This document shows positions 1-54,805 of a DNA stretch of 64,000 nucleotides, one piece after another. This DNA comes from Bacteroidia bacterium (GTDB lineage Bacteria > Bacteroidota > Bacteroidia > NS11-12g > UBA9320): contig JADLGN010000030.1 of the NCBI GenBank assembly GCA_020849295.1, positions 1 to 64,000 of the forward strand, given 5' to 3'. The notes under the pieces are model-generated. The model was not told the DNA's origin and did not search any database. It worked only from the letters and a program-made list of their open reading frames with translations. How positions within the stretch are numbered: the first letter of the stretch is position 1; each line of letters begins with the position of its first letter. The position numbers were made by a program, and so were the translations under genes.

Positions 1-3000
1 AAATTCAAACTTTATCTAAATCCGGTATAAATGTAACTTTGAGTAAAGGCGGTGGTACTTTTAATGTAAATGACGCCGATAGTAACAGTACAAACGAATT
101 GCAAACTATTTCTAAATCGGGCAATACTGTTACTTTGAGCAATGGCGGCGGCTCTTTTAATTTGAATGATGATAATGCTACAAACGAAATACAAAACCTT
201 AGTATTTCAGGCGGTAAAGGTAAAATTTATCTTACTAATGGAGGTAATGTTGTTCTTGATGATTCGAGTTCTACTAATGAACTTCAAACACTTAAAATAG
301 GACATGACACCATATATCTGAGCAACGGGGGGTATGTTGTATTGCCATCTACAGCCGGCAATTTTTGGAGCTTAAGCGGAAATACCGGAACAAATGCCTC
401 TAATTTTGTTGGTACTAAAGATGCTCAAGCACTTCGGTTTAGAATTAATAACCAAGTATCGGGTATAATAGATAGTGCCACAGGGGTGACAAGTCTGGGT
501 TATAAGTCACTTAACGCTAACTCAGGAGCCACATATAATACCGCCCTTGGCTTTAAATCATTAAACTCAAATACAACAGGTTCAGAAAACATTGCCGTGG
601 GTAGTTTCTCAATGCAAGATAATTCTACAGGTAATTATAATAATGCTTTTGGAAACTATAGCTTGCAAAATAATACTACAGGCAGTTACAATAGTGCTGT
701 GGGGTATCAAAGTTTATCAAGTAACACTACTGGATATATCAATAATGCTTTTGGAAACTATAGCTTGTATTCTAATACTACTGGTTATTATAATAGTGCT
801 GTGGGTTATAGTAGTTTATCAAGTAACACTACCGGATATAGCAATAATGCTTTTGGAAACTATAGCTTGGAATCTAATACTACTGGTTATTACAATAGTG
901 CTGTGGGATATGAAAGTTTATTCAGTAACACTACAGGAAATAGCAATAATGCTTTTGGAAACTATAGCTTGCATTCTAACACTACAGGCAGTGGTAATAG
1001 TGCTGTGGGGTATCAAAGTTTATCAAGTAACACTACTGGATATATCAATAATGCTTTTGGAAACTATAGCTTGTATTCTAATACTACTGGTTATTATAAT
1101 AGTGCTGTGGGGAATCAAAGTTTATCAAGTAACACTACTGGATATAGCAATAATGCTTTTGGAAACTTTAGCTTGCAATATAATTCTACAGGCAGTAACA
1201 ATAGTGCTGTGGGATATCAAAGTTTATTAAATAATACTTTTGGAAATAGCAATAATGCTTTTGGAAATAATAGCTTACAATATAATACTTCAGGCAGTAA
1301 CAATAATGCTTTAGGCTATGCAAGTTTATATAGCAACACTACAGGCAGTAACAATAGTGCTGTGGGATATCAAAGCTTGTATTCTAATACTACAGGGTAC
1401 ACTAATAATGCTTTTGGAAATATTAGCTTAAAATATAATACTACAGGCAGTCACAATAATGCATTAGGCTATGCAAGTTTATATAGCAACACTACAGGCA
1501 GTGGTAATAGTGCTGTGGGGTATGAAAGTTTATTCAGTAACACTACAGGAGAAGCAAATAATGCTTTTGGAAACTATAGCTTGCAATATAATACTACAGG
1601 GAACAATAATAATGCTTTTGGTGTGTCAAGTTTATCTAGTAACACTACAGGAAATAGCAATAATGCTTTTGGAAACTATAGCTTGCATTCTAACACTACA
1701 GGCAGTGGTAATAGTGCTGTGGGGAATCAAAGTTTATCAAGTAACACTACTGGATATAGCAATAATGCTTTTGGAAATAATAGCTTAAAATATAATACTA
1801 CAGGCAGTCACAATAATGCTTTAGGCTATGCAAGTTTATATAGCAACACTACAGGCAGTGGTAATAGTGCTGTGGGGTATCAAAGTTTATTCAGTAACAC
1901 TACAGGAGAAGCAAATAATGCTTTTGGAAACTATAGCTTGCAATATAATACTACAGGGAACAATAATAATGCTTTTGGTCTGTCAAGTTTATCTAGTAAC
2001 ACTACCGGTAGTTATAATAATGCTGTGGGGAATCAAAGTTTATCAAGTAACACTACTGGATATAGCAATAATGCTTTTGGAAATAATAGCTTAAAATATA
2101 ATACTACAGGCAGTAACAATAGTGCTGTGGGTTATAGTAGTTTATCAAGTAACACTACCGGAATTAGCAATAATGCTTTTGGAAATAATAGCTTACAATA
2201 TAATACTACAGGCAGTCACAATAATGCTTTAGGCTATGCAAGTTTATCTAGTAACACTACCGGTAGTTATAATAATGCTGTGGGGAATCAAAGTTTATTC
2301 AGTAACACTACAGGAGAAGCAAATAATGCTTTTGGAAACTATAGCTTGCTATTTAATACTACAGGCAGTAACAATAGTGCTGTGGGTTATAGTAGTTTAT
2401 CAAGTAACACTACCGGTAATAGTAATACTGCCATCGGTGCCGGGGCTTTGTATAACAACCAGAATGGAGATCAAAATGTTGCCATGGGAAATTCAGCACT
2501 TTATTCAAACACCGACTGCAGCAATCTGGTAGCCATTGGTGATAGTGCTCTTTATTATAATGGAACGTCGGTGTTTTCATCTCATCATGCAACAAATAAT
2601 GTGGCAATTGGATCAAAAGCACTTCTTTCTAATTCAAATGGGTACAACAACACAGCGGTCGGATCAAATTCTTTGACAAATAATACAGCTGGTTACTCAA
2701 ATACTGCTATTGGTTCCGCAAGTTTGTACAACAACATTGGTGGGTTCTTCAATTCAGCTTTTGGTGCCGGGGCACTTAGCAACAATACTCAGGGTGGTTC
2801 GAATACTGCCGTTGGACATTCCTCCTTATTGAGTAATACAATCGGAGGCGTAAATACTGCAGTTGGTGCGAATGCATTGTATTATAATACAGTTGGAGAC
2901 TTTAATACAGCCATTGGCGTTTCTGCCCTTTTAAGAAATGATACAGGCTCTTATAATGTTGCCATTGGAGCAACAGCCATGCAATTTAACGACTCCGGCT

Positions 3001-4307
3001 CATACAATGTAGCCGTTGGTCCGAATGCCATGGGAAGCAACACTATAGGCAATAACAATGTGGCCATTGGCAATGCAGCTATGTACCAAAACTACGATAT
3101 AGGAAGTAAAAATGTAGCAATTGGGGATAGTGCTATGTACAGCAGTATTACATCAGAGAATGTAGCCATAGGTAGCCGAGCCATGTTTTACAGTCCTTTT
3201 GCCGAACGCTCTGTAGCCATTGGTACCCACGCTTTGAGTTTAGAATCATCTGACGAAGACAATACGGCTATTGGGTATCGCAGTATGGTTTATGCTTCAA
3301 CCTCACGAAGTACTGCGGTTGGTTCCTATTCCTTAGAAGACAATTGGAATGGTTACGACAACAATGCCTTCGGTTATCAGGCATTAAAAAAGAATAATGG
3401 TGGATGGAGTAACCTGGCTATTGGCAACAGTTCGCTGGTAAATAATACTTTTGGGGACTATAATATTGCAATTGGTGAAGAAGCATTGGGTGGAAACGTA
3501 GGGAATAGCGGTAGCTTAGCAATAGGTTATCAAGCTATGCAATATGCAGATAATCGTACAAGCAATACGCAAAATACACGAAATACTGCGGTAGGTCATT
3601 ATTCATTGAGGGGAAGCTCCACGCCCGGCAACAATAAAGGGATGTATAATTCTGCATTTGGCGAAAGTACTTTAAGAAATAATGACTCCGGTTCTCAAAA
3701 TACTGCTGTAGGGTATGCCGCTATGTATTACACCACCAAAGGTTCATACAAGACTGCCATCGGGGCTGAAACATGGTATGGAAATGATTATGATAACACA
3801 ACCGCATTGGGTTACCAGGCATACATAGGTGGCAACAATCAAGTAGCTTTGGGTAATTACAGTGTAACAAGCCTCAACGCCCAGGTGAGTTCCATCACTA
3901 CCTATAGCGACAGCCGCATTAAGGAAAACATATTGGAAGACGTTCCCGGTTTGACTTTTATTTCAAAGCTGAGGCCTGTGAGCTATAATCTGAACGTCCA
4001 CAAGCAAAATGTTATTTTGGGAATAAGAGATTCATCTCATTGGGAAAGCAAATACGATATCGAAAAAATGAGGTTTAACGGACTGATAGCTCAGGAAGTG
4101 GATAGCGTAATGCAAATTACCGGAGCAAAATTTACCGGCATTGATAAACCAAATGCAAATAATAAATTGTATCAGATGAGATACGGGGATTTGATTATTC
4201 CATTAGTAAAAAGTGTTCAGGAGCTTGAAAAAGAAAATATTGAGCTAAAAAACAGGCTTGAGTTATTAGAAAAAAAACTTAATGTCATTTTGATTGACAA
4301 ACAATGA
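1..4307 (+). CDS. Giant repeat-built surface fibre protein with C-terminal S74 chaperone domain (5' end outside window)
   Basis: The frame is open from the first bases, so the true start lies upstream; the TTG at 39 is only an internal codon. Visible parts in order: three to four N-terminal beta repeats of the 'TNELQT...LSNGGG' kind (to about nt 350), a linker, 37 strict 17-residue repeats (537-2423), more diverged repeats of the same GxxNxAxG style to about 3860, then a Peptidase_S74 / intramolecular chaperone domain with the 'SDSRIKENI' motif (Ser codon at 3906) and 'GLIAQEV', ending in a charged coiled coil. S74 domains are known from phage tail spikes and bacterial fibres, where they trimerise the fibre and cut themselves off. 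The repeats resemble YadA-head-type beta-roll units. No T9SS sorting domain is visible, so the export route is unknown. Base composition is richer in G+C than the genes that follow. It ends in ATGA, overlapping a possible start of the next gene. A phage-derived origin is possible. Confidence 0.85.
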   Translation, partial: IQTLSKSGINVTLSKGGGTFNVNDADSNSTNELQTISKSGNTVTLSNGGGSFNLNDDNATNEIQNLSISGGKGKIYLTNGGNVVLDDSSSTNELQTLKIGHDTIYLSNGGYVVLPSTAGNFWSLSGNTGTNASNFVGTKDAQALRFRINNQVSGIIDSATGVTSLGYKSLNANSGATYNTALGFKSLNSNTTGSENIAVGSFSMQDNSTGNYNNAFGNYSLQNNTTGSYNSAVGYQSLSSNTTGYINNAFGNYSLYSNTTGYYNSAVGYSSLSSNTTGYSNNAFGNYSLESNTTGYYNSAVGYESLFSNTTGNSNNAFGNYSLHSNTTGSGNSAVGYQSLSSNTTGYINNAFGNYSLYSNTTGYYNSAVGNQSLSSNTTGYSNNAFGNFSLQYNSTGSNNSAVGYQSLLNNTFGNSNNAFGNNSLQYNTSGSNNNALGYASLYSNTTGSNNSAVGYQSLYSNTTGYTNNAFGNISLKYNTTGSHNNALGYASLYSNTTGSGNSAVGYESLFSNTTGEANNAFGNYSLQYNTTGNNNNAFGVSSLSSNTTGNSNNAFGNYSLHSNTTGSGNSAVGNQSLSSNTTGYSNNAFGNNSLKYNTTGSHNNALGYASLYSNTTGSGNSAVGYQSLFSNTTGEANNAFGNYSLQYNTTGNNNNAFGLSSLSSNTTGSYNNAVGNQSLSSNTTGYSNNAFGNNSLKYNTTGSNNSAVGYSSLSSNTTGISNNAFGNNSLQYNTTGSHNNALGYASLSSNTTGSYNNAVGNQSLFSNTTGEANNAFGNYSLLFNTTGSNNSAVGYSSLSSNTTGNSNTAIGAGALYNNQNGDQNVAMGNSALYSNTDCSNLVAIGDSALYYNGTSVFSSHHATNNVAIGSKALLSNSNGYNNTAVGSNSLTNNTAGYSNTAIGSASLYNNIGGFFNSAFGAGALSNNTQGGSNTAVGHSSLLSNTIGGVNTAVGANALYYNTVGDFNTAIGVSALLRNDTGSYNVAIGATAMQFNDSGSYNVAVGPNAMGSNTIGNNNVAIGNAAMYQNYDIGSKNVAIGDSAMYSSITSENVAIGSRAMFYSPFAERSVAIGTHALSLESSDEDNTAIGYRSMVYASTSRSTAVGSYSLEDNWNGYDNNAFGYQALKKNNGGWSNLAIGNSSLVNNTFGDYNIAIGEEALGGNVGNSGSLAIGYQAMQYADNRTSNTQNTRNTAVGHYSLRGSSTPGNNKGMYNSAFGESTLRNNDSGSQNTAVGYAAMYYTTKGSYKTAIGAETWYGNDYDNTTALGYQAYIGGNNQVALGNYSVTSLNAQVSSITTYSDSRIKENILEDVPGLTFISKLRPVSYNLNVHKQNVILGIRDSSHWESKYDIEKMRFNGLIAQEVDSVMQITGAKFTGIDKPNANNKLYQMRYGDLIIPLVKSVQELEKENIELKNRLELLEKKLNVILIDKQ
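537..2423 (+). repeat. In-frame tandem repeat array, 37 units of 51 bp
   Basis: Thirty-seven consecutive 51-bp units, each coding for 17 residues of the form N[NST]A[FVL]GxxSLxxNTTGxx, run with no length change between units. Units mostly alternate between NNAFG and NSAVG versions. Longer blocks are also copied: the stretch starting at 1451 recurs at 1808 (357 bp, 7 units), and the one at 1721 recurs at 2027 (306 bp, 6 units). This points to recent expansion by unequal exchange. The array then passes into older, diverged units. Confidence 0.95.
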
Positions 4308-4372
4308 AAATTGCAAATTATTTTCATAAGCTGTTTGCAATACTTTTGGTTTTATTGTACAATTGCGTATTG

Positions 4373-5095
4373 ATGTCAATAAAATTAAAGGCTTGTATAG
4401 TTGACGATGAAAGTTTGGCAATTTCTTCACTCAAAATTGACCTGAGTAAAAACTGTCATCAGGTTGATGTTATTGCAACATTTCAAAATCCGAAAGATTT
4501 TACTGAATTTATAAAGCAAAACCAAATTGATATTTTATTTTTAGATATTGAAATGCCCGAACAAAGCGGTATTTTAATGCTTGAGCAATTAGGTAACTTT
4601 CAGTTTGATGTTGTTTTTATAACAGCTTATACCGAGTATGCATTAAAAGCCATTAAGATACATGCCTACGATTATTTATTAAAACCTATAGATACCGAAG
4701 AGTTAAAAAAAACGGTAAATGAACTTTGTCTTAAAAGAACATCATTAATAAAAAACAATATTCACAGAATTGCACTTGCCGATATTAATGGATTAGAAAT
4801 AATTGATATTGATAAAATTATTTATTGCTTGGCAGATAAAAACTATACAACATTTTTTTTAACTGATAACAGAAAAATAGTAGTCAGCAGAAATATAGGT
4901 GAGTATGCTAAGTTGCTCAATCATTCAAAATTTTTCAGAATTCATCAATCATCTATAGTTAATCTTTTTCATGTAACTAAAATTACAAAAGGTACAAACG
5001 GAAGTGTAATAATGAGTAACGGAACCGAATTAAAAATTTCGAGAGCTAACAAAAATGATTTTTTTGAAAGTATTCAAAAAATAACTCTAATGTAG
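4373..5095 (+). CDS. LytTR-family response regulator
   Basis: DNA-binding two-component response regulator. The N-terminal receiver domain has the acidic pair 'CIVDDE', the phospho-acceptor Asp in 'LFLDIEMPEQSG' (Asp58 from this start), 'ITAY' and the Lys of 'LLKPI'. A LytTR DNA-binding domain fills the C-terminal 100 residues ('FFRIHQSSIVNL'). A start at 4304 would overlap the fibre gene's stop as ATGA and add 23 hydrophobic residues. I prefer ATG 4373, because the receiver then begins at once and the Asp falls at the usual position. If 4304 is used, the extension would be an odd membrane segment on a cytoplasmic regulator. The partner is very likely the histidine kinase that follows; the LytTR plus His_kinase (PF06580) pairing is standard in Bacteroidota. 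Target promoters are unknown; the adjacent fibre gene is a candidate. Confidence 0.9.
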   Translation: MSIKLKACIVDDESLAISSLKIDLSKNCHQVDVIATFQNPKDFTEFIKQNQIDILFLDIEMPEQSGILMLEQLGNFQFDVVFITAYTEYALKAIKIHAYDYLLKPIDTEELKKTVNELCLKRTSLIKNNIHRIALADINGLEIIDIDKIIYCLADKNYTTFFLTDNRKIVVSRNIGEYAKLLNHSKFFRIHQSSIVNLFHVTKITKGTNGSVIMSNGTELKISRANKNDFFESIQKITLM

Positions 5096-5152
5096 TAATT
5101 AGCTATTATATTACTTAAAATTTTTATGTAGTGTTTTAAAATCTTTATTTAG

Positions 5153-8100
5153 TTGAAAAATTACAAAACATTAATATTAACTTCTTTTTTTTTAGCTCTT
5201 ACAAGTCTTATTTATTGCCAAACAAACAATATTAATGTAATAAATTACAAAGTAAAAAACGGACTTTCAAATAACAATATAAATTTTATATTTCAAGATA
5301 ATAAAGGCTATATATGGATAGGAACATATAATGGGTTAAGCAGATACGATGGATATGAATTTAAAAATATTTTTATTCAAAGTAAATCATCAGCAAACAG
5401 TATAAATCACTTTAAGAATTATTTAAAATACAATGACACTACTTATTTTGTTACAACTCATACAGAAGGAATATTTATATTAAACACCAACAAATGTTCA
5501 TTGATAAAAATAGAAAACTCACCATCTGTTTCTACTAGTATTTGTAAAGGGAAATCAGGGTTGTATTGGATAGGAACACTGGCAGCAGGTTTTTTCAGCT
5601 ATGATATTAAAAGCAGTAAGTTTAAACAAATATTACTACATCCATTAAAAAAAGATTTCATATCAAACTGGGATAACAATACAGTAAATTCAATAATACA
5701 AGACCCTGCAAACGATTCTATAATATGGCTTGGGTGCCGCTCAGGTTTAAAATCTTATAATTTTTATACAAAAAAAATTACTGATTATAATCTTTATCAT
5801 CCCGACTTATCACATCAGTTGGCTTTAAATCATGTTATATCCTTAAATTTAGATAAAAACACTGTTTGGGTTGGACGATTTTTCGGCGGTTTAGGCAAAT
5901 TTGATTTAACTTCAAAAACTTTCAAAAACTACTTTTACAATCAGCAAAATTTTAATCAAACAATTTCAAATGACAATTCGATATTAAAAATACTAAACAA
6001 CAACAATAATTTATGGCTAGCTACATCTGCCGGAGTTTATACTTTTGATAAAAATACTGAAACATTTACCAAATATATGCTTCTTAAAGACAATATATTA
6101 TTAAACTTTGGAGTAACTTGTATATTGAAAGACAAATACGGCAATAAGTGGTTTGGATTAAATGAACAGCAGGGTTTATTAATGTCTTCTCCAAAATTAA
6201 ATGCTTCAGAAAAAATAATTTTTCCTAAGCAAAAATTCGCAAAAGACTATTATGGCTCGGTAATTACAGACATAATATACAGTAACAAACATAAGAGCTA
6301 TTTTGCAACTGTATCAAATCATGACGGTCTGTTTGAATATTCTGAAAATTTTGAGTTGAAAAGACAAATTACTTTGCCGTCAACTCTAAAAAATTACGAA
6401 CCACATGCTACCGAATTAGAAGAAGATGATAATGGTAAAATATGGATACTTAATATTACTAATACTTTAGTGTGCTTTGACCCACAAAGCGGGAAATACA
6501 GTAATTACATATCTGATAAATTTAAAAGTTGTGAAACCATAATTTCTGACAATAGCGGCAATTTGTTTTTTTTAACAGATAAGGGATTATTTAAACTTTC
6601 AAAAAACAACTGGCAGCTAATTGCCGATATTTCTGATAAATGCTTAATTTCAAATATCAGAAACCAAAAGTTTTATTTTATTGACAATCGTACAGTAAAA
6701 GAATTTGATTTAAACAAAAAAATAGTATCTAACATTTTTAATTTGCCAAAATTCAGTACAGAAAACTACAATTTTGTGCAGAGCATATATTTAGACTATA
6801 AAAATCGCCTTTGGATACCACTTGAAATTGGCGGAATATATCAATATGACATAAGTAATAAAAAATTAAAAGCATTAACTGGAAAACAAGGATTGAACTC
6901 AAATGCAGTTCGCCGAATTATTGAAGATAAGGAAAAAAGAATTTTCATACTATGTAATGACGGATTTTTTTATTACGATGAAAACAGCAAGCAATGTTTA
7001 GATTTTAATAATTTAATGAGTTCTACAGTAAACAATTGGTATGAGAGGTTTATAGCAATAACAGAGAGTAATAAGTTGCTACTATCAAAATCTGATTCTT
7101 TCTTTTTAATTGACCAATCAAAAGTATTAAATTTCACTAACTCTCAACCAATAGTTACATCTGTAAAAGGTATAAATTTTGATTTTTTTGATTTTAGAAA
7201 ATCTTTATCAATACCTGATTATGCCAACAACTTAAAAATCAGTTTTACAAATTTTGATTTTGCCGGCAGTCACGAAATTGTTTATGAATATACGCTAAGT
7301 GACAGCAAACACAAATGGTTTGAATTAGATAAAGGTATAAATTACGTAACTCTTACGGGATTAACCGAAGGCTCATATAATTTTAAAGTTAGAATTAAAG
7401 GAAGTACAAAAGTGTGTTCAGTAAAATTCAGAATAAATGTGATTTGGTACAAGAGCAAACTATTTTATATACTGCTTACGTCGCTTCTGGTTATAATAAT
7501 AATATCGGCTATTTATTATTGGCAAAGAAAAAAATTAAGTGAAGAAGCATTGTTAAAAAAGGTAGCTGAATTTAAGCTTCAAGCTGTACAAACTCAACTA
7601 AATCCACATTTTTTATTCAACAGCCTAAACTCAATAAGTGCATTAATAAAATTAGGTGAATATCAAAAATCTGAAGATACGTTAAATGCATTTGCAAAAT
7701 TGATGAGGTTAATTTTAAATATGTCGGGAGAACAGATAATATCATTAAAACATGAAATAGATTTAGATATTTTATATCTTGATATTGAAAGATTAAGAAA
7801 AGATTATACTTTTAAATATGAAATTATACATAACAATATTGACCTATATAATGTAAAAGTTCCACCTATGCTTTTGCAGCCGTTTTTAGAAAACTGCATA
7901 AAACATGGTTTTACTTATGTAAAAAACAAAGATGAATATTTGATTTTAATAAACATAAAAAAGATAAACGATAAAATTACTATAGAAATTACAGATAATG
8001 GAGATGGAGAAAACGCAAACAAAAAACGAATTTATGAGCCAAAAGGAATTAGAATACAAAAAGAAAGATTAAAACAGTATAAGTTCACAAATAATATAAA

Positions 8101-8164
8101 TTTTAATATAACAACAGGATATATAAAACCCAATGGTTACAGGGTATTTATCGAAATTTCATAA
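5153..8164 (+). CDS. Membrane sensor histidine kinase with periplasmic beta-propeller (Reg_prop/Y_Y_Y type)
   Basis: A 1003-residue sensor kinase. It begins with a signal peptide or anchor (about residues 1-22, ending 'LIYCQ'), then a long region of two-component-regulator propeller repeats ('GYIWIGTYNGLSRYDG', 'GLYWIGTLAAGFF', 'NSIIWLGCRSGLKSYN'). A Y_Y_Y-like domain lies near residues 697-763, one membrane helix near 768-790, then a His_kinase core with the phospho-acceptor His819 in 'LNPHFLFNSLNS', an N-box 'LLQPFLENCIKHGF' and G-box residues 'DNGDGE' and 'GIRIQKERL'. The start is a TTG directly after an in-frame TAG at 5150-5152; the signal peptide begins exactly there and no ATG would preserve it. 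No receiver or AraC domain is fused, so it is not a hybrid kinase. It should phosphorylate the LytTR regulator upstream. The ligand is unknown. Confidence 0.88.
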   Translation: MKNYKTLILTSFFLALTSLIYCQTNNINVINYKVKNGLSNNNINFIFQDNKGYIWIGTYNGLSRYDGYEFKNIFIQSKSSANSINHFKNYLKYNDTTYFVTTHTEGIFILNTNKCSLIKIENSPSVSTSICKGKSGLYWIGTLAAGFFSYDIKSSKFKQILLHPLKKDFISNWDNNTVNSIIQDPANDSIIWLGCRSGLKSYNFYTKKITDYNLYHPDLSHQLALNHVISLNLDKNTVWVGRFFGGLGKFDLTSKTFKNYFYNQQNFNQTISNDNSILKILNNNNNLWLATSAGVYTFDKNTETFTKYMLLKDNILLNFGVTCILKDKYGNKWFGLNEQQGLLMSSPKLNASEKIIFPKQKFAKDYYGSVITDIIYSNKHKSYFATVSNHDGLFEYSENFELKRQITLPSTLKNYEPHATELEEDDNGKIWILNITNTLVCFDPQSGKYSNYISDKFKSCETIISDNSGNLFFLTDKGLFKLSKNNWQLIADISDKCLISNIRNQKFYFIDNRTVKEFDLNKKIVSNIFNLPKFSTENYNFVQSIYLDYKNRLWIPLEIGGIYQYDISNKKLKALTGKQGLNSNAVRRIIEDKEKRIFILCNDGFFYYDENSKQCLDFNNLMSSTVNNWYERFIAITESNKLLLSKSDSFFLIDQSKVLNFTNSQPIVTSVKGINFDFFDFRKSLSIPDYANNLKISFTNFDFAGSHEIVYEYTLSDSKHKWFELDKGINYVTLTGLTEGSYNFKVRIKGSTKVCSVKFRINVIWYKSKLFYILLTSLLVIIIISAIYYWQRKKLSEEALLKKVAEFKLQAVQTQLNPHFLFNSLNSISALIKLGEYQKSEDTLNAFAKLMRLILNMSGEQIISLKHEIDLDILYLDIERLRKDYTFKYEIIHNNIDLYNVKVPPMLLQPFLENCIKHGFTYVKNKDEYLILINIKKINDKITIEITDNGDGENANKKRIYEPKGIRIQKERLKQYKFTNNINFNITTGYIKPNGYRVFIEIS

Positions 8165-20372: not shown

Positions 20373-20495
20373 ATTTTAAAATTGTTTAAACTTTTTATCA
20401 TTTATAATTATTGTGTAAAAAATTAAATTAATTTACAAATGTTCATCTTTTTATTTAAATTACATAATAAAATTAAGATAATTTTGTTTCGGATT

Positions 20496-23400
20496 ATGTA
20501 CATGACTTCTTCCTATGCTAAAAAGTTGCTTTTGCTTGTAACTATAATACATATTTCAGTTTTTAGTTTTTCTCAATCAAAACATTACCAAATTGTATGG
20601 AATAATTGCATTAATAAATTTCCCTGCAATTTTAAAAATGCTGAATATCTTACCATCTCAGCAAGCTTGGTTATTCCTTTTTGGGTATTTTCAGAAGTTA
20701 CAGGTAATACACAATATGATGTAACTTTAACAAATGAAATTTATGAAAAAATTGAATGTTCTCCTGATTATTTATCCCTTATTAAAGATTTAAAAAAAAT
20801 TGAGTATTATAATTTGAATGAAGACTTAAAAAACAGATTAAAAATTAAAGTTATACCTTATAGAGTTATTAATCAAACTGTAGAAAGGCTTGTGAGTTTT
20901 GATTTAATATTAAAATATAAAGGCACTGTATCACAAAAACTTCTAAAAAAAGGAAATAAAACAAATTCAATACTTGCCGAAGGAACTTTTTATAAGATTA
21001 AAATAAAAGATGATGGGGCTTATAAAATTGACAAAAAATTTTTTAGTAAAAATTCTATTAATACCGATAATATTGATTTGTCAACTTTTAAAATTTTTGG
21101 TAACGGAGGTACTATGTTGCCAGAACCTATTAGCTACCAACGAACAGACGATTTAGCAGAAAACAGTTTATATATTTCAGATTTAAATGGAAATAATAAA
21201 TTAGACAATGACGATTATATTTTATTTTACGGAAAGGGACCAGATAGCTGGGATATAGAAAACGAAAATTATATTCATAAAAAAAATACATATTCTGATT
21301 TTGGGTATTATTTTATTACATGGGGTGGTTTGACAGGAAAAAGAATGCAAGAAACCAGCGATGGCAATGGAATAACTCCTCAAATTACAATTACTGAATC
21401 AGATTATTTATATGTAAATGACAATGACGAGATAAATTTTAGAAACAGTGGTAGAGAATGGTTTGGAGAATCTCTTACAATAGATAATAAAACTTTTGAA
21501 ATAAATATATCCGATGTGATAAGCAATCCATTTAACTCGTTGAAATCTGAAGTTGCTACCCGTACAGCAATACCAACTTTTACAAATCTTTATTTGAACG
21601 ATACCTTACTTTTAAATCATTTTGCCAATTCTGTTAATTTTGAAACAGATGACTATTACGCAAGTATTAGCACTAAAAACTCGCTTCTTAATAGTAATTT
21701 CCCGATAAAGTTAAAATATGAGTTTTTCAGACCACAACTAAGTTCTGAGTGTTGGCTTAATTATTTTGAAATAAAAGTTAAACGAAAAATGAAGACTGTG
21801 AATGGTCAAATTCATTTGTTCAACATTGAATCTGTAGTAAACCAAAAAGTAAAATACAGTATTGAATCATTATCTCCACAGCATTTTTTATGGGATGTAA
21901 CTGATATTAATAATGTAAGTTTTCAAAAAACTTATGATGATAATGGAAAATCTTCTTTTACAGTAAATCCAAATAATAAACTTCTGAAATTTCTATCATT
22001 TATAAGTGGAAGTGAGATGACACCTGAGTTTGTCGGCAAAGTAGAAAACCAAAATCTACATTCACTTTTGCCAGCAGATTATATTATTTTAACCCATCCC
22101 GACTTTAAGCAACAAGCCGAAAAAATAGGTGAATTTCATAAAAAACAAAATGGTTATACATATATAATAGCATATCCTGAAAAAATATATAATGAATTTT
22201 CAAGTGGTGCAGTTGATATTACAGCAATAAGAGATTTTATAAAAATGCTTTATGACAGAGCCGATAATCAACACAAACCAAAGGCACTTTTACTACTTGG
22301 TGACGCAAGTTATGACTATAAAAACAAACTGGCCAAAGGTGGAAATTTTGTACCGACAATGGAGAGTTACGAATCAATTAATTCTGTTTCAAGTTATTGT
22401 TCTGATGATTATTTTGTAATTTTAGACGATAATGCAGGTTTTTGGCCCAAACTTAATGTTCAAGAAAATCTTGATATGGGAATTGGGCGTTTGCCGGCAA
22501 AATCAGTTTATGATGCCGAAGTATATGTTGATAAAATAATTCATTATAAAACAGCTTCAACAAAAGGCGATTGGAGAGTTAATTTTACATTTCTTGGAGA
22601 TGACGAAGATGATGAAGTTCATTTTAAAGATTCTGAAACTTTAGCTACACTTACAGAAACTGAATACAACAAATCAAATATTAATAAAATTTATCTTGAT
22701 GCATTTAAACAAATATCATTAGGAAACGGAAATTCATACCCAGACGTAAACGAAACTGTAAATAATTCTATTTCAAAAGGCACTTTACTTTTTAACTATT
22801 TCGGACATGGAGGAGGAAGTGGTATGGCACACGAAAGAGTTGTTACAATTCCGCAAATTATGAGTTGGAAAAACTATGACAAACTCACGTTTTTTGTTAC
22901 TGGAACATGCGACCTTGCACAATTTGATAATCCAAAAGAAGAATCACCTGGCGAGCTAATGATAATAAATAATGAAGGTGGAGCAATAGGCATGATGACC
23001 ACTACCCGAAAAGTTTATATCGGAGTAAATACAAGGTTTTCATTAAATTTATACAGAGATAATCTTTTAAAATTTGATGGTAAAAATCATACTACATTCG
23101 GAGAATCTTATCGTATTGTAAAAAACAGAATGTGGAATGAATACAATGTAAGAAATTATGTAATGCTTGGCGACCCCATGCTATCGCTAAATTTACCAAA
23201 AATGAATACAAAAATTACAAAAATTAATTCAAAAAATATTTTAAACAACAATAGCGATACCTTAAAAGCACTTGCAAAAGTAGAAATTGAAGGAATTGTT
23301 ACAAATTTAAACGATTCGATACTTTCAAATTTTAACGGAGATGTAACAATTGTATTATTTGATAAAAAACAAGTTTTTAAAACACTTGCAAACGATATAA

Positions 23401-24290
23401 GCAGCACAGTTCAAACTTTTACAGTAAGAAATAATGTATTATATAGAGGTAAAGCAAGTGTAAAATCAGGAATTTTTAAGGTACAATTTATAATTCCAAA
23501 AGATATAGATTATTCAATAGGAAAAGGAAGAATATTCTCTTATGCTTACAATGACAATCAAGATGCATGTGGAATTTACGACAGTATTGTTGTAGGTGGA
23601 ACTTCATCATTAATTGCAAAAGATGACAAAGGACCTGAAATTGAAATATTCTTAGAAGACGAAAATTTTGTAGATGGTGGCTTAGTAAATAATAACCCTA
23701 AACTAATTGTAAAACTATGGGACGAAAATGGAATAAATACTGCCGGAAATGGCGTAGGTCGCGAAATACTTGCTAGTATAGACTATGAAAAGTCCTCAAA
23801 GAAAAATTATATATTAAATGATTTCTACTCAACAACTTTAGATAGCTATCAGGGAGGTGAAGTAAATTTCAATATACAACAAATATCATCAGGAAAACAT
23901 ACCTTAAAAATTAGAGCATGGGATGTATATAACAATAGTAGCGAAAAATCTATTGAATTTGAAGTAAGCAGCAATCAAAATTTATCAATCAATAATCTGT
24001 TAAATTATCCCAATCCATTCGTTTCAAATACCCAAATTATGTTTGACCATAACAAAGCCGGCAAAGATTTGGATATATCAATAAACATTATGACTATAAG
24101 CGGCAAAATTGTAAAAACAATTTATAAAAAAATTATAAATGCTCCTTCGCATATTGACAATATTGATTGGAACGGCAAAGACAATTACGGACAAAATCTT
24201 GCCAGAGGAGTTTACCTTTATAAAATAAAAATAAAATCAGATGATGGAAATACAGAAGAACTGTTGCAAAAAATGGTTTTAATAAAATAA
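20496..24290 (+). CDS. porU: Type IX secretion system sortase PorU
   Basis: Outer-membrane C25 (gingipain-like) cysteine protease that removes the CTD of T9SS cargo and attaches A-LPS. The C25 catalytic pair is visible: His in 'NYFGHGGGSG' (codon 22806) and Cys in 'VTGTCDLAQFDNP' (codon 22908), which are His771 and Cys805 from this start. An N-terminal PorU domain precedes it, and the C-terminus holds a FlgD/CTD-like beta domain ('NLLNYPNPFVSNTQIMF' ... 'GVYLYKIKI'). I chose ATG 20496 because a clean signal peptide ('KKLLLLVTIIHISVFSFSQ') follows; 20502 is equally possible, while 20439 adds a second unlikely hydrophobic stretch. PorU acts with PorV, coded next. Confidence 0.94.
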   Translation: MYMTSSYAKKLLLLVTIIHISVFSFSQSKHYQIVWNNCINKFPCNFKNAEYLTISASLVIPFWVFSEVTGNTQYDVTLTNEIYEKIECSPDYLSLIKDLKKIEYYNLNEDLKNRLKIKVIPYRVINQTVERLVSFDLILKYKGTVSQKLLKKGNKTNSILAEGTFYKIKIKDDGAYKIDKKFFSKNSINTDNIDLSTFKIFGNGGTMLPEPISYQRTDDLAENSLYISDLNGNNKLDNDDYILFYGKGPDSWDIENENYIHKKNTYSDFGYYFITWGGLTGKRMQETSDGNGITPQITITESDYLYVNDNDEINFRNSGREWFGESLTIDNKTFEINISDVISNPFNSLKSEVATRTAIPTFTNLYLNDTLLLNHFANSVNFETDDYYASISTKNSLLNSNFPIKLKYEFFRPQLSSECWLNYFEIKVKRKMKTVNGQIHLFNIESVVNQKVKYSIESLSPQHFLWDVTDINNVSFQKTYDDNGKSSFTVNPNNKLLKFLSFISGSEMTPEFVGKVENQNLHSLLPADYIILTHPDFKQQAEKIGEFHKKQNGYTYIIAYPEKIYNEFSSGAVDITAIRDFIKMLYDRADNQHKPKALLLLGDASYDYKNKLAKGGNFVPTMESYESINSVSSYCSDDYFVILDDNAGFWPKLNVQENLDMGIGRLPAKSVYDAEVYVDKIIHYKTASTKGDWRVNFTFLGDDEDDEVHFKDSETLATLTETEYNKSNINKIYLDAFKQISLGNGNSYPDVNETVNNSISKGTLLFNYFGHGGGSGMAHERVVTIPQIMSWKNYDKLTFFVTGTCDLAQFDNPKEESPGELMIINNEGGAIGMMTTTRKVYIGVNTRFSLNLYRDNLLKFDGKNHTTFGESYRIVKNRMWNEYNVRNYVMLGDPMLSLNLPKMNTKITKINSKNILNNNSDTLKALAKVEIEGIVTNLNDSILSNFNGDVTIVLFDKKQVFKTLANDISSTVQTFTVRNNVLYRGKASVKSGIFKVQFIIPKDIDYSIGKGRIFSYAYNDNQDACGIYDSIVVGGTSSLIAKDDKGPEIEIFLEDENFVDGGLVNNNPKLIVKLWDENGINTAGNGVGREILASIDYEKSSKKNYILNDFYSTTLDSYQGGEVNFNIQQISSGKHTLKIRAWDVYNNSSEKSIEFEVSSNQNLSINNLLNYPNPFVSNTQIMFDHNKAGKDLDISINIMTISGKIVKTIYKKIINAPSHIDNIDWNGKDNYGQNLARGVYLYKIKIKSDDGNTEELLQKMVLIK

Positions 24291-52093: not shown

Positions 52094-54022
52094 ATGAAAA
52101 TTTTAAAAAATATAATATCAGTATTTTTGATATTATTTTCGATAAATGCAACAGCTCAGCAATTGCCACTATTGAGCAGTTATTATGCAAATTCATATTT
52201 ATCAAATCCGGCTTTTGCAGGTATAAAAGGAAATAAAATATTTTTATTAAACCGAAGCGACTGGAAAAACATCCTATCAAAAACTGAAACATTTCTGGCT
52301 TCATACAATGGTAATTTTAAAAACGGCAGTGATGGTATTGGTTTTACTGTTTATAATGATATGCGTGACATTATTTCGAGAAGTGCTGTTTTTGGTACTT
52401 ATAGTTACAAAGTACAAATAGCAAAAAAGAGCGTATTAGCATTTGGGTTTTCTCTGGGGTACGAGCAAAGCAAAATTATAACAGAAAGGGTTGACCTTGA
52501 AAAAAAACAAAATATAACATTTCCTAATAATGCAAATTCTTCAAATTCATTTGATGGAAATTTTGGAATTTCATTTCATAAAAATTCGCTTAATATAGGA
52601 ATTGCAGGGTATCGTCTATTAGAAACAAATGAAATAAAGCTAAATCCCGAAACAAAACACGATTTTGATTATATTTTCGAAAAACAATTGATTGGATTAA
52701 TTTCTTATTCATTCAACTTAAGCAAAAATTTATTAAAAATAGAACCTTTATTACAGGTACATAAAGGAATAAAATCAAAACCCGCTATAAATTTTAATGC
52801 TACAGCTAATTACAAAAATAAATATTGGTTTGGAAGCGGTTACAGACAATTATATGGTTTTGATTTTTCTGCCGGTACAACTTTATATGAAAAAATATCA
52901 TTAGGCTACACATTTGCTTTAGCTCAAAATAATAATAATAACAATTTTCATGAAGTATTTTTTGGGTTTAATCTTGGAGGAAAAAGTTTTGAAAATGATA
53001 AAGATAAAGATGGTGTTTCTGACTTATTTGATAAAGAACCAATGAGTATAGAAGGTGGAATTGTAAATAATGACGGAATAAATTTAGACAGTGACAACGA
53101 TAGCATACCAGACGGTATTGATAAAGAACCTAACACCCCCAAAGGTGCAGCAGTAAATCAACTTGGAATTGCTTTAGATTCTGACGAGGATGGCATTATA
53201 GATTTATTCGATATGCAGGCAAATACTCCAACGGGATGTGTCGTAGATAATTTTGGAATAGCCTCAGATAGTGATAATGATGGAATTTTAGACTGTAATG
53301 ATAAAGAAATTAATACAATTAATGGAGCAAAAATAGATAAGAACGGCGTAGCTATTGATACAGACAAAGATGGAGTACCAGACGTAAAAGACCAAGAACC
53401 TGAGACTCAACATTGGAAACATATTGGAGAAAAGCAAAGTAAAGATGCTTCAAGCTGTGTAGTTGATGAATGGGGCGTAGCTAAAGACAGTGATGGTGAC
53501 GGGTTTAAAGATTGTATTGATGGACAGGTTTTTTCACCAAAAGGAGCTAAAGTAAACAAAAACGGTATTGCAATAATAAAACCCGACGAAGTGATTACTG
53601 AAAAAGTAGAAGATAGTGATGGTGATGGTATTTCTGATGATTTAGACCTTGAACCAAATACTCCAAAAGGTACCAGCGTAGATCAGTGGGGAAGAAGTCC
53701 ACTTGTAAATAATGACCCTTCAGCTATTCACAGAATAGATGTAAATGAAATAGAAGACAATTCTCAAATTTGGGATTATTATGTAATAATCGGCGTATTC
53801 AGATACTATAATAATCTTAAGAATTATCAAAAATATTTATTAAAAACTTATGATGAAACAACACAAGTACTTGTAACACCACAGAATTACTATTATACAT
53901 GGACTAAAAAAATCACAACAAAAGAAGAAGCAAAAGCAGAAATAAGCAGGCTAAAAGAAAAACGATTGAAAGATTATATTGTTGGCAATCCGTGGATGTG
54001 GCGTGAATCAAAAAACAAGTAA
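52094..54022 (+). CDS. PorP/SprF-like outer-membrane protein fused to TSP3 repeats and a SPOR-like domain
   Basis: A 642-residue three-part protein. Residues 1-21 are a signal peptide ('INATAQ'); 22-295 are a PorP/SprF barrel ('QLPLLSSYYANSYLSNPAFAG', first part); about 302-533 are seven calcium-binding thrombospondin type 3 repeats ('DSDGDGISDDLDLEPNTPKG'). Residues about 559-633 look like a SPOR domain ('WDYYVIIGVFRYYNNLKNYQ', 'YTWTKKITTKEEAKAEISRL'). Usual PorP fusions in the phylum end in an OmpA domain; here SPOR, a binder of denuded glycan, seems to take the anchoring role. The barrel would sit in the outer membrane with the rest in the periplasm. The LytTR regulator gene follows after 12 bp. 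A T9SS accessory role is inferred from family only. Confidence 0.8.
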   Translation: MKILKNIISVFLILFSINATAQQLPLLSSYYANSYLSNPAFAGIKGNKIFLLNRSDWKNILSKTETFLASYNGNFKNGSDGIGFTVYNDMRDIISRSAVFGTYSYKVQIAKKSVLAFGFSLGYEQSKIITERVDLEKKQNITFPNNANSSNSFDGNFGISFHKNSLNIGIAGYRLLETNEIKLNPETKHDFDYIFEKQLIGLISYSFNLSKNLLKIEPLLQVHKGIKSKPAINFNATANYKNKYWFGSGYRQLYGFDFSAGTTLYEKISLGYTFALAQNNNNNNFHEVFFGFNLGGKSFENDKDKDGVSDLFDKEPMSIEGGIVNNDGINLDSDNDSIPDGIDKEPNTPKGAAVNQLGIALDSDEDGIIDLFDMQANTPTGCVVDNFGIASDSDNDGILDCNDKEINTINGAKIDKNGVAIDTDKDGVPDVKDQEPETQHWKHIGEKQSKDASSCVVDEWGVAKDSDGDGFKDCIDGQVFSPKGAKVNKNGIAIIKPDEVITEKVEDSDGDGISDDLDLEPNTPKGTSVDQWGRSPLVNNDPSAIHRIDVNEIEDNSQIWDYYVIIGVFRYYNNLKNYQKYLLKTYDETTQVLVTPQNYYYTWTKKITTKEEAKAEISRLKEKRLKDYIVGNPWMWRESKNK

Positions 54023-54034
54023 AAAATAATTGCA

Positions 54035-54805
54035 ATGGATGTTTCATTGCATTCAAAAATTAAAGTTGCTATAATAGATGACAGTTTATTAAGCATCACT
54101 GCAATAAAAAAACTATTAGAAAAATTTAATGATACAATAGATATTTCTTTTACATCTACAAATGCGAACGATTCTCTATTACAACTTTCAAATAATAAAA
54201 TCGACATTTTATTTTTAGATATAGAAATGCCTTTATTTAATGGTTTTGAAATACTTGAAAAAATTGGACAATATTCATTTTTGGTTGTATTTACTACAGC
54301 TCATGAAAATTATGCTTTGCAAGCATTTAAAATACACGCTTTTGATTATTTAATTAAACCAATTGAAAAAAATCAACTTGAAGACATAATAAAAAGATAT
54401 TTTGAACGAGTAAATTTCAATAAAAAAATATCATTAAACCAAAATAAAAAACCAGACAGTAATGTATTAGAGGCTAATGGAAGACTGATAATTGATACAC
54501 ATGGTAAGACTTTCTTTGTAAATATTTCAAATATTCAATATTTTAAGGCTGAAAGAGCTTATTCAAAAATTTACTATAATAATTCAAATATATTAGTTTC
54601 AAAAAACACAAATTACTTTGAAAAATTATTGAACAACCCGTGTTTCTATAGAATTCACCGCTCATTTTTGATAAATATAAACCAAGTGAAAGAATTTGTT
54701 AAAAAGAACAACTCATATTTTGTTATTATGAATAATGGCGATGAGCTTGCAATTGCAAAACAGAATAAAAAGGAGTTACTCTCAAAATTGCAATTTCAAA
54801 ATTAG
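54035..54805 (+). CDS. LytTR-family response regulator (no adjacent kinase)
   Basis: A 256-residue response regulator. The receiver has 'AIIDDS', phospho-acceptor Asp62 in 'ILFLDIEMPLFNG', 'FTTAHENYALQAF' and Lys in 'YLIKPI'. The LytTR DNA-binding domain fills the C-terminus ('YFKAERAYSKIYY', 'FYRIHRSFLININQVKEF'). It lies 12 bp after the PorP-SPOR gene, in the same transcript. No histidine kinase is adjacent, so its partner is elsewhere or it is served by another kinase. It is similar in layout, though not close in sequence, to the regulator at 4373. Its stop codon overlaps that of the convergent 54802 gene in TTAG. Confidence 0.92.
   Translation: MDVSLHSKIKVAIIDDSLLSITAIKKLLEKFNDTIDISFTSTNANDSLLQLSNNKIDILFLDIEMPLFNGFEILEKIGQYSFLVVFTTAHENYALQAFKIHAFDYLIKPIEKNQLEDIIKRYFERVNFNKKISLNQNKKPDSNVLEANGRLIIDTHGKTFFVNISNIQYFKAERAYSKIYYNNSNILVSKNTNYFEKLLNNPCFYRIHRSFLININQVKEFVKKNNSYFVIMNNGDELAIAKQNKKELLSKLQFQN

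Follow-up and report, generated by a model that had tools for sequence, protein, structure and literature searches.

A repeat-fibre gene adjoined by a LytTR regulator and a propeller-sensor kinase in a Bacteroidia genome: a candidate surface-fibre operon

At the start of the window (the whole stretch of 64,000 nucleotides that was analysed), an S74-ended repeat-fibre gene is followed on the same strand by genes for a LytTR response regulator and a Reg_prop sensor kinase. The three genes may form a co-transcribed surface-fibre operon equipped with its own two-component system, which would control it; we infer co-transcription, the direction of control, the target and the ligand, and we give this reading a probability of roughly 0.5. 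The same trio is kept in a second genome of the genus (G001) at another genomic place, and the three genes therefore probably work as one unit.

The locus and its predicted fibre

As shown in Table 1, the three open frames and their domains are present as the initial annotation had described them, but the fibre gene is incomplete: it lacks its 5' part because its contig (C30 of the window's genome, G000) begins at window base 1. Two other contigs of the same genome, C29 and C13, each end in a fibre N-terminus with a homologue of a T9SS-tail gene upstream, and the missing part is probably the end of either one. Contigs C13, C28, C29, C30, C40 and C54 all have ends that break inside fibre genes, so the fibre repeats limit this assembly and the fibre count is uncertain.

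Table 1. Positions of the fibre, regulator and kinase genes and of their main features in the window
Feature	Position	Strand	Description
Fibre gene	3-4307	+	Open frame of 1434 codons, 5' open; fibre of repeats, with an S74 chaperone and a coiled coil at the C-terminus
Fibre repeat array, most regular section	625-2413	+	51-base units, 102-base double units
Peptidase_S74 domain	3906-4112	+	Pfam; Ser1302 and Lys1307 of the frame match the catalytic Ser-Lys dyad
LytTR regulator, frame from the ATGA overlap	4304-5095	+	REC-LytTR
Possible hydrophobic N-terminal extension of the regulator	4304-4372	+	Begins in the ATGA overlap
LytTR regulator from the usual start	4373-5095	+	REC 4394-4717, LytTR 4793-5074 (Pfam); orthologue in G001
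Sensor kinase	5153-8164	+	Signal peptide-like start, Reg_prop propellers, His_kinase core 7574-7801, ATPase-like end; orthologue in G001

The fibre consists of repeats of 17 residues each, arranged as 102-base double units. A structure model of residues 1000-1434 (pLDDT 85) contains YadA-like heads and an MyRF-like S74 end; it matches the BpaC head (Z 19.3, 229 residues, 2.3 Å), UspA1 (Z 18.2) and YadA (Z 12.8), while its C-terminal part matches the self-cleaving domain of MyRF (MyRF ICA; Foldseek). The sequence profile gives a match to SadA (E 0.0024), and model and profile together place the repeats among the left-handed beta-roll head repeats of trimeric adhesins. The Peptidase_S74 domain scores 6.2e-7 in Pfam, with 30.1 bits against a curated cut-off of 22, and the Ser, Asp and Lys of its site show no variation across 43 relatives. 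Ser and Lys stand five residues apart, and it has been reported that MyRF depends on this dyad spacing and that endoNF has an equivalent one (PMC8326128); with a domain above the cut-off and the dyad in place, the fibre groups by sequence with the self-cleaving S74 chaperone proteins. Because of the adhesin-head and MyRF fold matches and the invariant S74 residues, the fibre is predicted to be a trimer that cleaves off its own S74 chaperone, a prediction well supported by sequence. Pfam finds no YadA-type membrane anchor at its C-terminus, which ends in S74 and a long helix, and no Por_Secre_tail sorting domain in the fibre; that domain is carried by a small gene upstream of the G001 fibre (8.7e-10), the gene whose homologues lie on contigs C29 and C13. 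The N-terminal domain was compared with Bdello_MAT_N in the G001 fibre, since the window fibre is without its N-terminus, and reaches 49.6 bits, below the model cut-off of 60. The C-terminal part of the fibre also matches phage tail-spike families; a phage origin was rejected, as housekeeping and T9SS genes surround the fibre in the chromosome and none of the other genes examined was of phage type.

Two further loci stand out in the window. At 20439-24290 a protein of 1283 residues carries a C25 (gingipain-type) peptidase domain and is possibly the T9SS sortase PorU. At 52094-54805 the window has another surface gene with a LytTR regulator behind it: 13 bases separate the end of a gene for a PorP/SprF-like protein, which has DSDxDxxPD-type repeats, from the second LytTR regulator gene, which has no kinase directly beside it. 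G001 keeps both the PorP/SprF-like protein (74% identity) and this regulator (63%).

The regulator-kinase pair and its junction with the fibre

The regulator contains Response_reg (1.5e-20) and LytTR (8.8e-18) domains in Pfam and adjoins a kinase with Reg_prop (1e-18) and His_kinase (6.3e-19) domains, and the two are thus by sequence a LytTR two-component pair. The propeller sensor of the kinase is of the Reg_prop type found in hybrid two-component systems (HTCS) and is closest to the hybrid-system sensor PDB 4a2l (1.2e-35); Pfam finds no receiver or DNA-binding domain in the kinase, so it is not a single-protein HTCS. It has been reported that hybrid systems usually sit beside the surface locus under their control and that the known ligands of sensors in this class are oligosaccharides (PMC3243724). 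By family, a glycan or other small ligand is a likelier ligand for this sensor than the fibre or its assembly, and the inferred function, a sensor acting on the adjacent fibre locus, is drawn mainly from the analogy with hybrid systems.

No terminator-like site lies between the fibre and the kinase in the window, and none was found on the coding strand of the counterpart stretch in G001. Folding of the fibre-regulator junction is no better than in shuffled sequences in the window (z -0.96) and somewhat better in G001 (z -2.15). In contrast, a paralogous fibre of the same genome (G000:C40, 68% identical over the C-terminal part), which has no regulator beside it, stops at a TAA codon with a strong terminator behind it, formed by a hairpin and a T run (z -7.3), and this contrast favours read-through from the fibre into the regulator. 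A -7-like element, TACTTTTG, stands before the regulator at 4341-4348 in the window; a conserved promoter at this place was rejected, as no -7-like element was found in the G001 counterpart. Likewise, the search for a LytTR binding consensus or a common motif upstream of the T9SS-tail and fibre genes returned AT-rich words only.

The overlap between fibre and regulator noted in the initial annotation is present, with the ATG at 4304 overlapping the fibre stop TGA (4305-4307); this ATG is one possible start, and another, the ATG at 4373, lies where a REC domain would usually begin. Reading from the overlap adds 23 residues to the window regulator and 32 to that of G001, among them a strongly hydrophobic stretch. 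It is conceivable, if unlikely, that translation of the regulator begins in the overlap and is coupled to that of the fibre, and that this segment keeps the regulator at the membrane, which would be compatible with the operon reading. Both the overlap and the open frame of the extension recur in G001, and among 147 LytTR frames such an N-terminal segment is found only in these two and in none of the 145 others. Over the 45 nt upstream of the internal start the two genomes differ at 13 positions, close to the mean of 13.9 in the regulator body, with few changes at second codon positions (4/2/7 by codon position), and a 16-base block at 4350-4365, which contains the palindrome ATTGTACAAT (4354-4363), is identical. 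However, the usual start at 4373 is kept as well (ATG/GTG), the overlap has a simple origin since a Lys or Gln codon before TGA suffices to create ATGA, and the extension is hydrophobic by composition because the stretch is T-rich; moreover, the comparison is one of two sequences, whose extensions differ in length by an in-frame 27 nt. Were translation coupled at the fibre stop and the regulator membrane-anchored, fibre synthesis itself would set how much of this LytTR regulator of surface fibres is held at the membrane, an idea that we regard as doubtful.

Conservation of the trio and the wider survey

In G001 the trio has the same order, with the T9SS-tail gene before the fibre and the ATGA overlap kept. 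Identities between the window and G001 are about 57% for the fibre (80% in the C-terminal part), about 62-63% for the regulator and 54% for the kinase. By comparison, the mre, rodA and purH genes are 77-99% identical, and the window's second LytTR gene is 63% identical. The trio is flanked by rodA in the window and lies beside gltX on G001:C8, while the other window genes are matched on G001:C44, and the trio has thus remained intact through a change of setting. In its NELQ repeat region (L064 14893-14942) the G001 fibre breaks into two frames that overlap, which may be a frameshift, an assembly error or a repeat rearrangement.

The initial annotation would have been contradicted by an absence of the fibre-LytTR-kinase order from relatives. 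This was not the case, since G001 keeps the order in another genomic context, but among the surveyed Bacteroidia it was found in no genome beyond these two. Among six other genomes of the genus only G001 has an orthologue of the regulator, the other five reaching at most about 37% identity, and no LytTR gene beside an S74 fibre appeared among the matches listed for those five. In GTDB contigs, where very near genomes may be omitted, no named orthologue exceeds 41% identity.

S74 proteins are present in 37 of 58 relatives' genomes, and a fibre stands directly beside a LytTR/Reg_prop pair at 5 of 140 other LytTR loci. In three of these (L103, L121 and L339) the order is fibre, kinase, regulator; in L122 the fibre is divergent from the pair, and in L144 kinase and regulator are followed by an S74 remnant. 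Fibres occupy 5 of the 276 slots adjoining LytTR pairs versus 3 of 1027 other slots, which gives about p = 0.013 when the counts are treated as eight random placements (hand calculation) and a computed per-locus product of 0.002, both generous values in that L339 was fetched with the fibre on its contig already known and the regulators of L103 and L121 are close relatives. Approached from the fibres, 80 fibre regions covering 1.3 Mb contain a LytTR/kinase pair in four cases, one immediate with a divergent neighbour (L257) and three within a few genes (L207, L251 and L252), where kinase, regulator, at least one further gene and fibre run in one direction. Because two to three such regulators would be expected by chance, as estimated from LytTR counts, this survey gives no clear excess, and a general excess of LytTR pairs beside fibres is unsupported from the fibre side. 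Of the genomes that have such a pair next to a fibre, two carry just one S74 gene.

In a tree built from 109 regulators, those next to a fibre do not cluster but are scattered (nine changes, at least five of them forced, against a shuffled mean of 10.6), which rules out a single dedicated fibre-regulator subfamily. Judged from these sequences, the fibre-LytTR association recurs by repeated recruitment and not as one inherited system, because of this scatter. In two distant genomes (L257 4652-11576 and L122 3668-11869) a common upstream region serves a fibre gene and, in the opposite direction, the genes for a LytTR regulator and a Reg_prop kinase, and in L207 (9419-19499) a Reg_prop-type kinase, a LytTR regulator, a secreted protein, a T9SS-tail gene, a fibre-N-domain protein and an S74 fibre form a one-way run.

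Candidate mechanism, alternatives and known systems

In the proposed operon, the S74 end would assist the folding of a trimeric fibre of YadA-head-like repeats and then cleave itself off, and the gene just upstream would encode a small protein that carries a T9SS sorting tail, as seen in G001 and in the homologues at the C29 and C13 ends. The same transcript would continue into the regulator and the kinase, whose propeller sensor would face outward. The kinase would be activated by a ligand, for which a glycan or another molecule derived from a surface is the likeliest candidate, and would phosphorylate the regulator, which in turn would set how strongly the fibre operon, and perhaps other fibre genes, are transcribed. 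The regulatory link suggested by the initial annotation gains from the retention of the trio in G001, where order and overlap outlasted a change of flanks, and from the terminator-free junction; it loses from the other orders found elsewhere and from repeated recruitment. The fibre-adjacent pairs at 5 of 140 LytTR loci, and the pairs that lie in or near gene runs with fibres in 4 of 80 fibre regions, also speak for the operon, as does a sensor nearest to those of hybrid systems, a class usually controlling the adjacent surface locus (PMC3243724). Against it stand the exact order in two genomes only, the fibre-centred survey without clear excess, the other fibres of the window's genome, which have no such pair, and a motif search that found no binding site of the regulator.

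Much of this evidence also bears on a somewhat unlikely alternative, in which an ordinary LytTR/Reg_prop pair landed downstream of a fibre in the ancestor of both species and regulates unrelated genes, its position reflecting chance or convenient read-through. Such pairs are common and varied, their fibre-adjacent members are scattered on the tree, fibre regions show no clear excess of them and the paralogous fibre does without a regulator, all as chance placement would have it; yet the trio stayed intact while its surroundings changed, and fibres are more frequent in slots beside LytTR pairs than in other slots. The initial annotation had further suggested a sensor that detects the assembly or the ligand of the fibre; in the version in which the kinase senses the fibre itself, a cut-off S74 piece or a misassembled periplasmic fibre would bind the propeller and give feedback on assembly. 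A freed chaperone piece is indeed to be expected because the S74 dyad is intact, and fibre and sensor genes occur together in two genomes, but most fibres with intact S74 ends have no linked sensor, and the sensors of this class with known ligands take oligosaccharides (PMC3243724), which makes sensing of the fibre improbable. We consider the co-transcribed fibre operon with a ligand-responsive sensor the best explanation. To our knowledge, there is no case of a kinase sensing an S74 piece or a misassembled fibre.

In the open-access papers searched we found no published fibre with a LytTR or Reg_prop partner and no account of how such S74 fibres are controlled. A fibre with a linked sensor offers a direct way to ask which signal makes a cell display its fibres, and should the fibre prove to be under its control, the pattern of encoding a sensor next to its surface locus would reach beyond glycan uptake to adhesion.

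The locus shares parts with several known systems. Hybrid two-component systems of PULs in Bacteroidota (e.g., PDB 4a2l) likewise have a large periplasmic Reg_prop propeller sensor and usually lie beside the surface locus that they control, whereas here the kinase and a regulator of the LytTR type are separate proteins, with a fibre gene as their neighbour. LytS/LytR-type pairs have the same His_kinase (PF06580) and LytTR (PF04397) side by side, but here the sensor is a propeller and the upstream neighbour is the fibre gene. The mosaic adhesive trimer (MAT) fibres of Bdellovibrio have been reported as long, bacterial, non-phage trimers ending in S74 (PMC10769870); the G001 fibre resembles them in its N-domain, although below the cut-off, and the present fibre differs in its YadA-head-like repeats and in that no predatory context is known. 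The heads of trimeric autotransporters (YadA, BpaC and UspA1) have the same repeat fold, but the fibre has an S74 chaperone with a coiled coil at the end where type Vc proteins carry their autotransporter barrel. Finally, the S74 domain and the Ser-Lys dyad of the window fibre also occur in MyRF and in phage tail spikes that carry S74 as an intramolecular chaperone (endoNF, PDB 3gw6); the window fibre, unlike them, is chromosomal and lies amid housekeeping and T9SS genes.
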